Shown: piece after piece, positions 2,996 through 9,745 of the stretch | How the letters are laid out: each line of letters begins with the position of its first letter | Position numbering within the stretch: the first letter of the stretch is position 1 | Source of the DNA: Treponema sp. | GTDB lineage: Bacteria; Spirochaetota; Spirochaetia; Treponematales; Breznakiellaceae | DNA length: 10,000 nucleotides | Assembly (NCBI GenBank): GCA_020216655.1 | Contig: JAIWNU010000048.1 | Span: 1 to 10,000, forward strand | Reading direction: 5' to 3' | Translations under genes and position numbers: made by a program | The notes under the pieces: generated by a model | The model's database searches: none | The model's input: only the letters and a program-made list of their open reading frames with translations | What the model was told of the DNA's origin: nothing

Positions 2996-5077
2996 ATGAA
3001 AATCGGATTACAGCAAAAATTATACCTTATGCTGCTGCTTCCGCTCATTCTTATTCTTATTGTAATTGCAGGTATAGCATCGGTAACCACAAGCAAAAGC
3101 ACCAATGGACTCATAGAATCATCTGCCCGCAGCATGGCAAAAAATACGGCCCATACCATCGATATTATTTTTGATAACTATAAAATGCGATCCCAGCAGC
3201 TTGCCCGGGAAAGCAGGATTTCTTCCATGGTGTGGGAATGGGCAAAAGAAGCATTTCAGGAAGAGAAAACCTATGACACCAATCTTGAATCTACCTTATT
3301 GATCGAACCTTCGGGAAAAACCATGACCTTAGAGGGCCAGCAAGCCCAGGTAAATGACAGCGATTATTACCAGGACATTTTTTATTTAAATAAAGCGGTA
3401 ACGATAAGCAATGCAATTATTTCCAAAACAAGCGGAAATCCGGTGATCGTAGTTGCAGCAGCCATCAAGGACCGTGGCAGGGACAAAGCAAATGGCGCGG
3501 TGGGCCTCGTGTTAAGCCTGCAAAGTTTAGCCCGCTATTTTTCAAGCGAAACAGGGTTAAATGGAATTGCAATGCTGGTGGACAACAAAGGAACGGTGGT
3601 CTATCACCCAGACTCCCAAATTCGGATGAAGCTCAACCTGCTTAAAGCCGATGAAGCAGGCTACCGAGGGCTCCAGACGCTCGCCCAAACAATGCTGGAA
3701 GGGAAAGAAGGTTCTGGCACTTATAAGGGGCCCGACAGCAATCAATACCATGCGTTCTGGGCTCCCCTCTCTGCAGTGCAGGACTGGAGTTATCTCGTAG
3801 CCATTCCAGAAGCTGACTTTATCCGCCCCGTACAGGCTACCATTCTCGTGGTTGTTCTTTCGTTTATCGGCCTTGCCCTTATTATTGCCCTCCTAATTTA
3901 TTTTATCGGCCATATCATCAGCAAACCCGTTCGGGAAACCAGAAACGCTATCGAAGATTTAGCCCGGGGCGAAGGGGACCTGACCCGCCGGCTCACCATC
4001 ATCACCAACGATGAACTGGGCGAAATGGGAAACAATCTAAACCAGTTCCTGGACCTTATTCACAGTATTGTCGGTTCGGTACGGAACATTGTAGACCAGA
4101 TGCGCCTCCTGGGAGATGAATTGCAGGCCAACACGACCGAAGCGGCGAGTTCTGCTAAACAAATTTCCGGCAATACGGAGGATATTAAGGACCGGCTCGT
4201 GAGCCAATCTGCGGGAGTCAGCGAAACCCTAGCCACGGTGGAACAGATTAACCGGAACATCAAATCATTCCTACAGATGATCGAAACCCAGGCGACAAAC
4301 CTGACCGAGGCTTCCAGCGCCATAGAAGAGATGGTGGCCAACATCAATGCGGTAGCCCAGACGGCAATTCGAAATTACGAAAATATTATGACCCTGGGCA
4401 AAGATTCCGATGCGGGCAAGGAACTCCTTAACAATGTGGAAAGCCTTATCCAAAACATTGACCAGGCCAGCGAAGGAATGCTCGAGGCCAACACCATCAT
4501 TGCCAATATCGCAAGCCAGACAAACCTGCTTTCCATGAACGCCGCCATAGAAGCAGCCCATGCGGGAGACGCCGGCAAGGGCTTTGCCGTGGTAGCCGAG
4601 GAAATCCGCAAGCTGGCAGAAAACGCCAACGAACAAAGCAAGACCATTACCCAGGTTTTGCATAATGTCAAATCCTTAATTGACGAGGCAGTAAGTTCGA
4701 CCGCGGAGGCCCAAAAGAAATTCGACAACGTGTTTGAAGGCATTAGAAAGGTGGGCAACCAGGAAATTGAAATTAAAAACGCCATGGAAGAACAGCAGCA
4801 GGGCTCCCAGCAGGTACTGGTAGCCATGAAAGAACTGAATCAGATTACCGCGGAAATCCGCTCCGGCTCGGAAGAAATTCGCATCGGAAGCCAATCTATT
4901 TTAGATGAAATGAGCCGGGTCATGAAGGGGACCCAGGAAATTGAACAGGCATCTCAGGAAAATGCCCAGGGCTCGCTTGAAATTGTTCAGGCCATGGAGC
5001 ATATCAGCAATTTGAGCACCTCTAACGCCCAATCCATTAAAGAACTTGAGTCCCTGGTGGTAAAATTTAAAATTTAG
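2996..5077 (+). CDS. Methyl-accepting chemotaxis protein with periplasmic double-Cache sensor, 693 aa
   Basis: Transmembrane chemoreceptor that relays ligand binding to CheW/CheA. TM1 is about residues 9-30. The periplasmic region (31-280) has the long N-terminal helix and two PAS-like folds of dCache_1 sensors ([20 protein letters not shown], then [17 protein letters not shown] and [16 protein letters not shown]). TM2 is about 282-305 and HAMP 305-358 ([31 protein letters not shown]). A long coiled coil follows, with the conserved hairpin tip at 499-544 ([38 protein letters not shown]). The R-x-W-Y signature of amino-acid-binding Cache domains is not seen, so the ligand is unknown. The C-terminus (LVVKFKI) has no CheR/CheB pentapeptide. 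AAGGAG six bases upstream supports the start. No terminator follows before the pyr leader. Confidence 0.96.
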
Positions 5078-5080
5078 GAC

Positions 5081-5110
5081 TTGCGCAAAATATATTCTTT
5101 GTGATAGCAT
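5081..5110 (+). promoter_or_regulatory. Probable pyr operon promoter
   Basis: TTGCGC (5081-5086), an 18-base spacer, then TAGCAT (5105-5110) preceded by TG one base upstream, i.e. an extended -10. The -35 begins three bases after the chemoreceptor stop. A start near 5117 would give a short untranslated leader of about 26 bases before the leader-peptide ATG. Neither box is perfect. Confidence 0.45.
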
Positions 5111-5142
5111 CCCGCCAATTACAAACCGGGAGGGGAAGCAGG

Positions 5143-5313
5143 ATGCACCGACACAACAAAACAGCGCTGCATAGCAATTATGCTTTGCCCCAGCGGGTCG
5201 GGAATTTCTTTCCGGCCCTTTTCATCGTTTTTTCTAGCCGCCCTGTCAGGGCGGCTTTTTTTTGCCCATTTACTATTAGCGTTACCGACTGGAACAGAAA
5301 AGAACCGGTTTAA
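5143..5313 (+). CDS. Putative pyr attenuator leader peptide, 56 aa (PyrL-like by position)
   Basis: A small ORF starts at the ATG at 5143, with GGGAGG nine bases upstream (5128-5133). It stays open through the whole attenuator and stops at 5311-5313, where the TAA abuts the pyrB Shine-Dalgarno. It begins [16 protein letters not shown]. Residues 22-31 ([10 protein letters not shown]) are encoded by the U-rich tract, and residues 32-38 by the terminator stem; the terminator T run gives FF, followed by CP. E. coli PyrL has the same logic: a Phe-rich stretch over the U tract, then AFFCP over the terminator. The peptide itself probably has no function; its translation would place a ribosome on the terminator. 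Real translation is inferred, not shown. Confidence 0.6.
5195..5218 (+). promoter_or_regulatory. Pause-type RNA hairpin plus U-rich tract of the pyr leader
   Basis: GGGTCGGGAA (5195-5204) pairs with TTTCCGGCCC (5209-5218) over ten base pairs, two of them G-U, with a 4-base TTTC loop. A U-rich stretch follows at 5219-5235, with runs TTTT (5219-5222) and TTTTTT (5228-5233). This is the arrangement expected for a transcription pause that lengthens when UTP is scarce. It lies inside the leader ORF and ends 17 bases before the terminator stem. Confidence 0.6.
5236..5263 (+). terminator. Intrinsic terminator acting as the pyr attenuator
   Basis: AGCCGCCCT (5236-5244) and AGGGCGGCT (5248-5256) form a perfect GC-rich 9-bp stem with a 3-base loop, followed directly by a T run to 5263 and then GCCC. 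This is a textbook Rho-independent terminator. It stands 61 bases before the pyrB ATG and is overlapped by the leader ORF, so a translating ribosome would prevent its folding. It could also end read-through from the chemoreceptor gene, which has no terminator of its own. Confidence 0.92.
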
Positions 5314-5324
5314 GGGAGGAGCCC

Positions 5325-6254
5325 ATGCTGCAAGGCAGACATCTGGTGGATCCGCAGGATCTGCAATTAACGGAATTGGAGGACCTTTTTTCGCTAGCCC
5401 AGCGTATCCAAAAGGACCCATTGCACTACCGGGATCTATGCCGGGGAAAAATTCTCGCGACCCTCTTTTTCGAGCCCAGCACGAGAACCCGGCTCAGTTT
5501 TGAAGCCGCCATGCTCAGGCTCGGAGGCTCCTGCCTCGGTTTCGCAGAACCTTCTTCCAGTTCAGTGGCCAAGGGAGAAAGCCTGGCGGACACGATCCGC
5601 ACCGTTGCGGCCTACGCGGATATGATCGTCATGCGGAACCCCAAAGAAGGCGCAGCCCTCCTCGCTTCCCGCTATTCCTCGGTTCCGGTAGTCAATGCAG
5701 GCGACGGGGGCCATCATCACCCCACCCAGACCCTGACGGACCTGCTCACTATCCGTCAGCTCCGGGGTTCCACCGAAGGCTTAACCATAGGCTTCTGCGG
5801 GGACCTGCGCTTCGGGAGGACGGTCCATTCTCTGGCGGAAACTTTGGCCCGCTACCGCAACAATCGTATGGTGTTCATCTCCCCCCAGGAACTTAAAATC
5901 CCCGAGTACATTAAAAACGGAGCCCTCGCCCGGAATAACATAGAATACCGTGAAACTGACCGGCTCGAATCGGTCATGGGCGACCTGGATGTACTCTACA
6001 TGACCCGGGTCCAGCGGGAACGGTTCTTTAACGAAGAGGACTACATCAGGCTCAAGGACTTTTACATCCTGGACAACGAAAAACTAAAAAACGCAAAAAA
6101 GGACCTCATCATCCTGCACCCCCTGCCGCGGGTCAACGAAATTGCCATGGAGGTCGACGCTGACCCCCGGGCAGCCTACTTTGCCCAAGCAAAATACGGC
6201 ATGTATGTCCGTATGGCCCTGATCGCTTCCCTTATAGGAGACGCAGCATGCTAA
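5325..6254 (+). CDS. pyrB: Aspartate carbamoyltransferase catalytic chain, 309 aa
   Basis: Condenses carbamoyl phosphate with L-aspartate to N-carbamoyl-L-aspartate, the first committed pyrimidine step; cytoplasmic. All active-site motifs are present: [13 protein letters not shown] with STRTR at 52-56, [10 protein letters not shown] with Lys83 from the 80s loop, MRNP with Arg104, [10 protein letters not shown] from His132, [12 protein letters not shown] with Arg165, TRVQRERF with Arg228 and Gln230, and HPLPRV at 265-270. Length is normal. GGGAGGAG (5314-5321) sits just before the ATG and directly after the leader-peptide stop, so translation may be coupled to the leader. The last 7 bases overlap pyrI. 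With PyrI next to it, the enzyme is expected to be the regulated c6r6 type. Control is probably by attenuation in the leader. Confidence 0.98.
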
Positions 6255-6682
6255 ACATAGCGAAAATAAAGAACGGTATCGTTATCGACCATATCAAAGC
6301 AGGCCAGGGACTGCGTATTTTTAACTGGCTCGGCCTCGGCAAGGCCCCTTACACGGTCGCCTTTGTGGTTAACGCCGAATCCCGCCGCATGGGACGGAAG
6401 GATATCATCAAAATTGATAACGAAATTACCATCGATTTCGCCGTCCTGGGGCTCATCGACCCCAACATTACGGTCAACGTCATAGAAAACGAGCAGATTA
6501 CCGAAAAAATCCGCCTCAAGCTCCCCGAACGGGTGGAAAACATATTAATCTGTAAAAACCCGCGCTGCATTACCGCCACCGAGAAATACGCCCCCCACAT
6601 TTTCCACCTGGTGGACCCTGCGCGCGGCCTTTATCGCTGCGAATACTGCGATGAACAGCGGAGTGCCGAGGACTTCCGGTAG
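6248..6682 (+). CDS. pyrI: Aspartate carbamoyltransferase regulatory chain, 144 aa
   Basis: Binds nucleotide effectors (CTP, UTP, ATP in the E. coli enzyme) and holds PyrB trimers together. The N-terminal effector domain shows GIVIDHI (Asp14, His15) and [10 protein letters not shown] (Lys55), with [11 protein letters not shown] (Lys87) before the zinc domain. The zinc domain has four cysteines, Cys102, Cys107, Cys131 and Cys134, spaced C-x4-C-x23-C-x2-C. The N-terminus is about ten residues shorter than in E. coli. The start codon overlaps the pyrB stop (ATGCTAA), with AGGAG about eight bases upstream, which favours matched synthesis of the two chains. Confidence 0.97.
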
Positions 6683-6688
6683 GCCTTC

Positions 6689-8017
6689 ATGAAACTAATT
6701 TTCCACCAGGTCCGGCTCGTGGACCACAGCATGGATAGACGGGGCAGCCTCGTAGTAGAGGATGGACACATCCGGGAAATTCATATTGATGAAGTTCCGG
6801 CGGATTTGGCAAAGGCAGGCGGGGCGGCAATCCATATTGACTGTTCAGGCACCGACTGGGTCCTCATGCCCGCCTTTGTGGACCTCCACGCCCATTTTCG
6901 CGACCCCGGTTTTCCCGAAAAGGAAAGTCTCGAATCCGCGAGCCTCGCCGCCGCATCAGGCGGCTTTGGGACCGTAGTCTGCATGGCAAACACAAAGCCC
7001 GTCATCGATAACTTAGACCTGGCCCGTAAGCTCCAGAGCCGGGCCGAGCGGCTTGGCCTTATTGACCTTTTCCCCGTCCTGGCCTTAAGCCGGAACATGG
7101 AAGGCCATGACACGGGCCACCTGGAAGCCCTCGATGCAAAAACGATAGGGGGCACGGTGCGGCTCCTTTCTGAAGACGGCAAAGATGTGGCGGATGATAG
7201 GGTCCTCCGCAAGGCCCTCCATGAGGCCCGCAGGCTTGGGCTTCCCGTGAGCTATCACTGCGACTGGGGCGGAAAAGAGGCGGAGGACGCCAAGAAGGCA
7301 GGATTGCCCCGATGCATCTGGAGCCGCCTGGAGGAAAACCTTGCCACCGAACGGGTCCTTGCCCTGGCAGCCGAAACGGGGGTTCACATCCATATTGCCC
7401 ATGTATCGACCAAGGAAGCGGTAGAGCTCATTCGCAGGGCCCGCAAAGGGTCCGCAGCTCAGGGCTTCCGCCTTACCTGCGAAGCCACCCCCCACCATCT
7501 GGCCTGCACCGAGGAAATTGTGGACCAGTTAGGCCCTGAAAGCTATGGCCGGGTCAACCCGCCCCTCAGAACTGCGGCAGATATCGGCGCCCTTATTGAG
7601 GCGGTGCAGAGCGGAATCATCGATGCCATCGCCACCGACCATGCGCCCCATACCGAGGCGGACAAGGCCCAGGGGGCGCCGGGCTTTATCGGTCTTGAAA
7701 CAGCCTTTGCAGCCTGCCATACGGCCCTTGTGGCAGAACGGCATCTATCGCTAAAAAAACTTTCGGCCCTCATGAGCCGCAACCCGAGCCGCATACTCAG
7801 GCTCGAAGACCGGGGTTTTCTTGCCCCCTGGGCCCGTGCGGATCTCGTGCTGGTAGATCCCAGCGCTGAGTGGACCGTGCAAAAAGAGGATTTCAAGTCC
7901 CGCAGCTCGAACAGCCCCTTTATCGGTCAAAGGCTGCAGGGCCGGGTACTCATGACCATACACAGGGGAAACATCGTGTACGACACCCTTACAAACTATC
8001 CAAGGAGAATAGGATGA
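6689..8017 (+). CDS. pyrC: Dihydroorotase (class I, zinc amidohydrolase), 442 aa
   Basis: Cyclises N-carbamoyl-L-aspartate to dihydroorotate. Family marks in order: DLHAHFRDPGFPEKE with metal ligands His67 and His69 and substrate Arg71; CMANTKPV with Asn101; LSEDGKDV with Asp163, aligned with the bridging acid of the Aquifex/Bacillus type rather than a carboxylated Lys; SYHCDW with His190; IAHVSTKEA with His237; TCEATPHHL; RVNPPLR; and ATDHAPH with catalytic Asp317. Length fits the long class I form, not the 340-residue E. coli PyrC. The ATG is six bases after the pyrI stop and has no good Shine-Dalgarno, so it probably relies on ribosomes finishing pyrI. Its stop overlaps the pyrF start as ATGA. 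Confidence 0.97.
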   Translation: MKLIFHQVRLVDHSMDRRGSLVVEDGHIREIHIDEVPADLAKAGGAAIHIDCSGTDWVLMPAFVDLHAHFRDPGFPEKESLESASLAAASGGFGTVVCMANTKPVIDNLDLARKLQSRAERLGLIDLFPVLALSRNMEGHDTGHLEALDAKTIGGTVRLLSEDGKDVADDRVLRKALHEARRLGLPVSYHCDWGGKEAEDAKKAGLPRCIWSRLEENLATERVLALAAETGVHIHIAHVSTKEAVELIRRARKGSAAQGFRLTCEATPHHLACTEEIVDQLGPESYGRVNPPLRTAADIGALIEAVQSGIIDAIATDHAPHTEADKAQGAPGFIGLETAFAACHTALVAERHLSLKKLSALMSRNPSRILRLEDRGFLAPWARADLVLVDPSAEWTVQKEDFKSRSSNSPFIGQRLQGRVLMTIHRGNIVYDTLTNYPRRIG

Positions 8018-8937
8018 AATATGCCATGGACGCCCTCTTTGAGGCGGTACGGGACCGGGGACCGGTCTGCGTAGGACTTGATACCGCCCCCGATTATATC
8101 CCGCCCCGGGAGATAAAACACGCCACATCCAAGGCCCGGGCTGTTTTAGATTTTAACCGGGCAATTATCGACGCAACACAGGATGTATCGGCCTGCTACA
8201 AGGTCCAGATAGCCTATTACGAAGCCTTGGGACTTGCAGGCCTTGAGGCCTACCGGGACACCCTGGCATATATCCGCCAGCGGGGCAGCCTCGTCATCGC
8301 CGACATTAAGCGGGGAGACATAGCCGACACTGCTAAATGCTATGCCAAGGCCCATTATGAAGGGGACTTTGAAGCAGACCTGGTCACCCTATCGCCCTAT
8401 ATGGGCATGGACTCCATTGAACCCTGGTTTTCTTATGCCAAAGAACAGGGCAAAGGGGCCTTTGTGCTCATGCGGACCAGCAATAAGGGCATGAAGGACT
8501 TTGAATACCAGGAATTAGCCAAAGGAGGGCGGCTATACCATGAGGTGGGACGGAAAATGCAGGCTTTGGCCAAAGAATGCCGGGGCAGTTCCGGGTTCGG
8601 TGCCTTTGGCGTAGTGGTGGGCTGCACCGAGCCGGAAGAGGCCGAACGAATCAGGCGGGAGCATGGGGACCTCTTTTTTCTCATCCCCGGCTACGGCGCC
8701 CAGGGAGGAGCCGCGGAAGATGCAAGCCGCCTTTTGATTGATGGAAACGGCGGGGTGGTAAACGCTTCCCGGTCTATCCTAAAAGCCTGGTTTGCCGATT
8801 TTAACACCCAAAATATCTCGGAAGCCACCTATGCAGATGTGGCCGCTGCGGCCCGCCGGGAAGCCCTGGCCATGAAAAACGATATACTTGCGGCCTGTGC
8901 TGCCAGCAGGGGCCGGGAGGGGGCTTCCCGTGGCTGA
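8014..8937 (+). CDS. pyrF: Orotidine 5'-phosphate decarboxylase, type 2, 307 aa
   Basis: Decarboxylates OMP to UMP, the last step of the pathway. The catalytic motif DIKRGDIADTAKCYA gives the D-x-K-x-x-D set Asp97, Lys99 and Asp102. The N-terminal strand VCVGLDTAP, FNRAIIDAT, KVQIAYYEALG, VVVGCTEPEE, FFLIPGYGAQGG and VVNASRSIL fit the longer type 2 family also found in mycobacteria and clostridia, rather than the 230-245-residue E. coli type. The start is the ATG at 8014, with AAGGAG six bases upstream and an ATGA overlap with pyrC; an in-frame ATG at 7870 lies deep inside pyrC and is rejected. The last 8 bases overlap pyrK. Confidence 0.97.
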   Translation: MKYAMDALFEAVRDRGPVCVGLDTAPDYIPPREIKHATSKARAVLDFNRAIIDATQDVSACYKVQIAYYEALGLAGLEAYRDTLAYIRQRGSLVIADIKRGDIADTAKCYAKAHYEGDFEADLVTLSPYMGMDSIEPWFSYAKEQGKGAFVLMRTSNKGMKDFEYQELAKGGRLYHEVGRKMQALAKECRGSSGFGAFGVVVGCTEPEEAERIRREHGDLFFLIPGYGAQGGAAEDASRLLIDGNGGVVNASRSILKAWFADFNTQNISEATYADVAAAARREALAMKNDILAACAASRGREGASRG

Positions 8938-9745
8938 AACAGCTCACTGCTCCCATGACCGGGCATTTCTTCCCGGCACCATTATTGCCAACCCGGTCAT
9001 ATATGAGGCGAAGGGCGAAGGGGCTGTCTCGGTGCTGCAGGTCAGCTGGGATGGGCCGGAAAGCAAACCGGGTCAATTTTTTATGCTCCGAATGGTACGA
9101 AGCGGGGTTGTCCTCGGCCGGCCCATCAGCGTGCTGGATCATCAGAAGGGGATTCTGAGCTTCCTTGTGGCTGAACGGGGAATCGGGAGCCGGGAGTTGG
9201 TGCAGGGCCGGCCCGGCGAAACAATCGAGCTTGCAGGCCCTCTTGGGAACACTTGGCCCAGTATGCCTGACTCAACAGGGGCCTCGGCTTCCGGCCCAGG
9301 GTCCGCAGGACACAAACCTATCGCTTTAGTCGGAGGAGGTATCGGCATCGCTCCCCTCCTTTTTTTAAGTAAAACCATGGACAGCGCGGATTTCCGCTTT
9401 TTTGCAGGTTTCCGGTCCCGGCCCTACGGCCTCGAATCCCTGCCGAACCAAAACCTTACCGTTGCAACCGAGGACGGCTCCGCAGGGTACCGGGGAAGAA
9501 TTCCTGACTTTTTTAATCCCGCTGAGTACCGGGCAGTCTATGCCTGCGGACCTGTCCCCATGCTCAGGCGCATCGCCGAAGACTGCGCGAAAGCCGCCGT
9601 TCCCTGCTTTATCAGCCTGGAAGAACGGATGGCCTGCGGAGTCGGGGCCTGCCTGGGTTGCACGGTCCGTACAAAACAGGGGAACCGCCGCTGCTGTGCC
9701 GACGGCCCTATTTTCCCCGCCGAGGAGGTACTCTTCGATGACTGA
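8930..9745 (+). CDS. pyrK: Dihydroorotate dehydrogenase electron-transfer subunit, 271 aa
   Basis: Iron-sulfur flavoprotein that passes electrons from the FMN of PyrD to NAD+ in class 1B enzymes. An FAD-binding ferredoxin-reductase domain shows GRPISVLD (63-70), GPLGN and GGGIGIAPL (135-143), followed by [12 protein letters not shown]. The C-terminal 2Fe-2S site has Cys236, Cys241, Cys244 and Cys255 or 256 in [11 protein letters not shown] and [11 protein letters not shown] choose the GTG at 8930 because GGGAGG lies nine bases upstream and it overlaps the pyrF stop as GTGGCTGA; an ATG at 8888 would add 14 residues inside pyrF and lacks a good site. A Ser/Gly/Ala/Pro-rich segment (about 110-129) looks like an insertion before the NAD domain. 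Confidence 0.95.

Follow-up and report, generated by a model that had tools for sequence, protein, structure and literature searches.

The DNA in front of pyrB in a 10,000-nucleotide stretch of a Treponema sp. genome (the window) probably acts as a transcription attenuator that is coupled to the translation of a leader open reading frame (ORF) and senses UTP, as in E. coli pyrBI. Every element named for such a leader is present between the end of a chemoreceptor gene (position 5077) and the start of pyrB (5325), the terminator and the ORF across it are conserved in the genus, and an ORF reaches the terminator in 48 of the 59 family leaders in which it could be tested. Translation of the leader, the pause of the polymerase, UTP as the signal and suppression of this terminator by the ribosome are the parts that we infer. 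A pyrBI-style attenuator was also the reading of an earlier note on the window, and it is supported by the ORF over the terminator (4/4 genus members as well as the 48 family leaders) and by the failure to find PyrR.

The leader elements all lie on the forward strand. A promoter recognized by eye spans 5081–5110, with the -35 hexamer TTGCGC (5081–5086), an 18-nt spacer and an extended -10 element (TGA-TAGCAT, 5102–5110, with TAGCAT at 5105–5110); transcription would be expected to start near 5117. A promoter-scoring scan favored another upstream pair (TTGAGT/TAAAAT) over this conserved one, and the same leader ORF was picked either way. The Shine-Dalgarno sequence GGGAGGGG (5128–5135) precedes a leader ORF of 56 codons (5143–5313; ATG at 5143, TAA at 5311–5313), which spans a hairpin and the terminator. 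The hairpin (5195–5218; 10 bp, -16.1 kcal/mol, z -4.0) is a possible class I pause hairpin, for which a transcript 3' end 11–12 nt past the structure would fall in the T run at 5228–5233. It is followed by a U-rich tract, TTTTCATCGTTTTTTCT (5219–5235), presumed to be the UTP-sensing stretch, and by the intrinsic terminator or attenuator (5236–5263), with a 9-bp stem, a 3-nt loop and a T run. The terminator hairpin (5236–5256) has a predicted energy of -17.4 kcal/mol (z -4.6) and the T run continues to 5263. Both hairpins are unusual relative to chance. The predicted fold of the leader accommodates them together and contains no competing antiterminator. The leader TAA directly adjoins the pyrB Shine-Dalgarno sequence, GGGAGGAG (5314–5321), and the pyrB ATG follows at 5325. 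The order of the elements and the path of the ORF across both hairpins to a stop at the pyrB ribosome site are therefore as the earlier note described them.

The leader peptide matched no Pfam or NCBIfam family at E values up to 10, in libraries that presumably contain a PyrL model, and its best PHROGs match reached only E 0.084. By itself, the window ORF is also unremarkable: 17% of dinucleotide shuffles are open over 56 codons, and one of the two remaining frames of the leader is likewise open.

Downstream on the same strand are pyrB (aspartate carbamoyltransferase catalytic chain, 5325–6254; TIGR00670, 3e-103), pyrI (regulatory chain, 6248–6682; NF002063, 1e-62), pyrC (dihydroorotase, 6689–8017; TIGR00857, 2e-99), pyrF (OMP decarboxylase, 8014–8937; TIGR02127, 4e-72) and pyrK (dihydroorotate dehydrogenase electron-transfer subunit, 8888–9745), the last two with uncertain start codons. 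The pyrK product matches NF000798 (2e-59; 201 bits, below the cut-off of 219) and DHODB_Fe-S_bind (5e-16). The window genome is 2.66 Mb (G000, about 90% complete). In G001, another member of the genus, a similar-sized gene run leads into pyrD (DHO_dh) and a gene for a phosphoribosyltransferase, probably pyrE. Upstream, the chemoreceptor gene (2996–5077, forward strand) ends with a stop codon only 3 nt from the -35 box (5077–5086). Short ORFs separate the chemoreceptor gene from the pyr leader in G001 (L226:1229–1821), and one of them encodes a helix-turn-helix protein with a weak IS481-type match.

We propose that RNA polymerase starts near 5117 and that a ribosome loads at 5143. If UTP is plentiful, the polymerase would outrun the ribosome across the U-rich tract (5219–5235), the terminator (5236–5263) would fold and the pyr genes would be off. 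When UTP is low, the polymerase would slow in the tract, probably aided in the window species by the hairpin at 5195–5218. The ribosome would then catch up and cover the 5' arm of the terminator, letting the polymerase continue into the pyr genes. A published account describes pyrL in terms of transcription-translation coupling at low UTP (PMC10135430), and a second presents the same mechanism (PMC5021804). Terminators located close behind a stop codon are suppressed by ribosomes at the stop codon, according to a third study (PMC4824070).

An ORF of 48–56 codons passes through the terminator in all four members of the genus (G000–G003). The terminator core and its T run occur once in each of these genomes, before pyrB, and in identical letters. 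G000, G001 and G003 read this DNA in one frame and G002 reads it in another; hence, it is the openness of the frame that is conserved and not the peptide. Each ORF is individually weak evidence, as 15–31% of shuffles stay open. G003 retains the promoter and G002 has it in the form TTGCAA/TAGCAT; in G001, a TTGCGC/TAGCAT pair is more distant, 223 nt upstream of the terminator. G-rich stretches precede the leader ATG in G001, G002 and G003. Ahead of the U tract, G000 and G003 show a clear hairpin (z -3.3 and -2.2), which G001 and G002 do not (z 0.0 and -0.3).

At the level of the family, 146 of 195 genomes contained pyrB at E values up to 1e-60 and 142 leaders were read, four (G143, G163, G172 and G209) having been dropped as partial or at contig ends. 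A terminator was sought within 300 nt and found in 69 leaders; some of the other 73 sit on contigs that run out near pyrB. The best promoter-like pair was picked blind to ORFs and the first ATG downstream was taken as the start of the ORF. This rule yielded a testable ORF in 59 of the 69 leaders and excluded ten without an ATG, in some of which the terminator is reached by an upstream reading frame or by an ORF with a GTG or TTG start. The ORF was open to the terminator (within 12 nt of the stem) in 48/59 leaders. Dinucleotide shuffles predict 20.3 (sd 3.2) and gave a maximum of 35 in 200,000 draws, and frames +1 and +2 were each open in 24 of the 59 (Fisher p 2e-7, real frame versus both pooled). 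When each of the 24 genera was represented by a single leader, about 20 and at least 19 were open, against a null of 8.1 and a maximum of 15 in 2000 draws. Where the promoter scored 16 or more, all 15 ORFs were open (other frames, 4 and 9; 7.6 expected). Thus, the openness of the ORF across the family is far from chance. Among the 11 leaders that are not open is one from the genus of the window, G001, in which the ORF was located through its Shine-Dalgarno sequence alone; an alternative ATG, chosen post hoc, gives an ORF that reaches the terminator in 9 of the 11. The earlier note had named a terminator kept without an overlapping ORF as the pattern that would speak against its reading, and neither the genus (4/4) nor the family leaders (48/59) showed it.

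Two other signals in these leaders were considered and rejected. The motif CCGCC-N-GGCGG, present in 58 of the 69 leaders, is a poor candidate for a DNA operator because its spacing varies (4 to 7, once 9); the T run that follows it further disfavors an operator, although the terminator search itself required a T run. Stop codons fall at the terminator foot in 20 of the 48 open ORFs, but they do so also in 9/24 and 8/24 of the open ORFs in the other frames, so this clustering is not specific.

Many of the family ORFs start closer to the promoter than the window ORF does. The ATG lies 5–9 nt past the -10 box in 34 of the 59 leaders, compared to 8.7% for random anchors, which implies that these transcripts begin at or beside the AUG and are apparently leaderless. 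These ORFs, many of them about 12 codons long, are open in 33 of 34 cases (16 genera), with 15 and 14 open in the other frames and 13.7 expected. The ATG is 36–43 nt before the terminator in 16 of 18 tested leaders from four genera (g7, g28, g43 and g49). Leaderless transcripts are described as common in another spirochaete, Leptospira interrogans (PMC5243855). Several genera could have reduced the attenuator to a minimal leaderless transcript that is translated from its first codon for about 12 codons and ends at or in the terminator. Direct loading of ribosomes at the 5' end and the speed of the polymerase over some 40 nt would then decide readthrough into the pyr genes, with no pause hairpin, Shine-Dalgarno sequence or protein factor, a proposal for which we see the chances as evenly balanced.

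The sequence just before the terminator is rich in T throughout the family. A 21-nt segment ending 4 nt before the stem has a T fraction of 0.475 in the 59 leaders, against a leader mean of 0.284, and 51 of the 59 exceed their own mean. The values for this segment are 0.48 in the window and 0.38 in E. coli. This composition fits a UTP-dependent slowing of the polymerase. A pause hairpin conserved across the family is not supported, there being no excess over control stretches (mean z -0.46 in 69 leaders versus -0.37 in 68 control stretches; z below -2 in 8/69 versus 7/68). The pause-type hairpin of the earlier note is thus present at 5195–5218 (z -4.0), and also in G003, but is not conserved beyond control. 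As it is strong in the window and not family-wide, the hairpin is at most a local refinement. The comparison of related leaders that the earlier note had suggested consequently bore out the open ORF, the terminator (in the genus) and the T enrichment, and not the hairpin.

These patterns bear on a different explanation, namely that the terminator merely ends transcription of the upstream chemoreceptor gene, that the pyr operon has another promoter and that the ORF is there by chance. The chemoreceptor gene is on the same strand and ends at 5077, a scan of the window found no other same-strand terminator-like site before 5195, and the window ORF alone is not improbable. Because the scan found no separate terminator on that strand between the gene and the leader hairpins, the attenuator may indeed also stop readthrough from it. 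However, the nearest long upstream ORF (90 codons or more, called mechanically) points in the opposite direction in 16 of the 34 leaders with enough upstream sequence, in the same direction in 13, and is unclear in five, where the terminator is overlapped by a reverse ORF. G001 retains the leader ORF and the terminator despite the helix-turn-helix gene that stands between the chemoreceptor gene and the leader. A scan of 5264–5324 found no promoter-like pair from which the operon might otherwise be transcribed. Together with the conservation of the open ORF and U tract, this makes a terminator dedicated to the chemoreceptor gene very unlikely.

Attenuation that depends on a protein or ligand, be it PyrR, a different RNA-binding protein or a riboswitch, and in which the ORF is incidental would share with the window a terminator before the pyr operon, the arrangement seen in PyrR-dependent attenuation (RF00515). 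PyrR attenuation controls pyr operons in Firmicutes, and a search of six loci with Rfam recognized one PyrR site, before pyrB of Fervidicella (L105). The same search returned no match for four spirochaete loci (L004, L005, L008 and L066), nor one at gathering score for Fonticella (L097), though its leader looks PyrR-like by eye. RF00515 was found in none of the 195 family genomes under strict filters that lose weak matches; the controls from Bacillus subtilis, Thermus and Lactococcus all matched, two of the three over the cut-off. No PyrR protein scored over the cut-off in nine genomes, each of which has weak matches to PyrR models below it. These searches agree with the earlier note, which had seen neither a PyrR gene nor a PyrR-binding loop, and with neither the RNA nor the protein found, we do not place the leader in the PyrR class. 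Furthermore, the window has no Rfam element at gathering score, and a permissive search of its leader gave nothing near gathering score; six small RNA models that appeared in it were far below and were judged to match terminator hairpins by chance. No competing antiterminator appears in the leader's predicted fold either, and the family leaders look unalike by eye apart from the terminator, which does not fit a conserved site for a ligand or protein. A protein- or ligand-dependent attenuator is therefore very improbable. Coupled attenuation that senses general translation capacity or an amino acid in place of UTP is highly improbable: a translated ORF beside a terminator would respond to any change in how ribosomes are spaced, and leaderless translation can depend on the state of the ribosome, but T is enriched before the terminator in 51/59 leaders, the genes downstream make UMP, and no run of a single codon recurs by eye in the leader peptides beyond those that T tracts force.

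A UTP-sensing coupled attenuator remains the preferred reading, and its closest counterpart is E. coli pyrBI with its leader pyrL. The window shares with it a leader ORF that is led by a Shine-Dalgarno sequence, overlaps the terminator and ends at the pyrB ribosome site; a hairpin; a U-rich tract before the terminator; a strong, GC-rich terminator between promoter and pyrB, with T8GCCC after the stem; and pyrB and pyrI downstream. It differs in belonging to another phylum, in the number of pyr genes that follow (at least five, compared with two), and in the distance from the hairpin to the terminator stem (17 nt versus about 38 in E. coli, whose hairpin was located by eye). A two-sequence BLASTP comparison aligned 22 residues of the window peptide and PyrL (E 5e-4), largely over positions at which the T tracts impose FF and FFCP. 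Most of the similar residues (FFP, AFFCP) are set by T tracts in this way, and hence the similarity is no evidence of descent. Homology to PyrL is likewise rejected because in G002 a different frame is read through the identical terminator DNA.

Other known attenuators resemble the family leaders in part. In E. coli rph-pyrE, attenuation is also coupled to translation and the reading frame ends before the terminator. Similarly, the leader stop codon is at the terminator foot (by foot+2) in 20 of the 48 open relatives. In three of six leaders examined from genus g23 (G067, locus L030; G127; G128), an upstream frame of more than 300 nt, which we take from its residues to be HD-GYP-like, ends 5–6 nt before the terminator at pyrB. 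Unlike rph-pyrE, the ORF in relatives is usually a dedicated short leader, and the window follows the pyrL plan, its stop codon ending about 57 nt past the stem. Leaderless leader peptides are known from attenuators that respond to amino acids, including Sinorhizobium trpL and leaders of Corynebacterium, where a short ORF at or near the 5' end of the transcript also controls a terminator. Those systems sense charged tRNA through competing hairpins, whereas the window has no predicted competing hairpin and its genes make UMP. With no codon run beyond the Phe codons of T tracts either, we do not regard it as a trp- or his-type attenuator. We found no description of such an attenuator in spirochaetes in the titles and abstract openings of papers listed from an open-licence library. 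A survey of attenuators (PMC2965389) returned no mention of spirochaetes, Treponema or UTP in a term search, and the pyr passages located in it concern PyrR.

UTP-dependent coupling of ribosome and polymerase at pyr genes is the textbook E. coli case. The same plan in many genera of another phylum would show that it readily originates or persists where PyrR is absent. Among the relatives the device takes several forms (an ORF through the terminator, a leaderless mini-ORF, and an upstream reading frame that ends at the terminator), some of them seemingly far smaller than the classic one. Such a device also implies that transcription and translation are closely coupled in spirochaetes, something of which we know no test, and the leaderless forms would be a very small natural assay for it.

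The ORF rule was also applied to 11 leaders of the order from outside the family. All three that could be scored in two further families (G070 in f2; G072 and G107 in f4) are open through the terminator, each ORF by itself being compatible with chance (Pnull 0.79, 0.33 and 0.77). A third family (f3, eight genomes) does not show the pattern: the rule found no terminator in seven of its eight leaders, and the terminator in G097 has no preceding ATG. The ATG of G070, G072 and G107 lies 24–29 nt past the -10 box, as in a leader with a Shine-Dalgarno sequence. This suggests that the form seen in the window may be older than the leaderless form.

Two smaller observations concern single genera. In g53 (G055, G237 and G238), where the search used found no terminator, a -10-like box can be seen by eye about 5–6 nt before the pyrB ATG, and pyrB itself seems to be leaderless. 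In g10 (G012, G135, G136, G140 and G141), the leader peptides have a common N-terminus resembling MKxRxWK, hinting that the start of the peptide is itself conserved in this genus.
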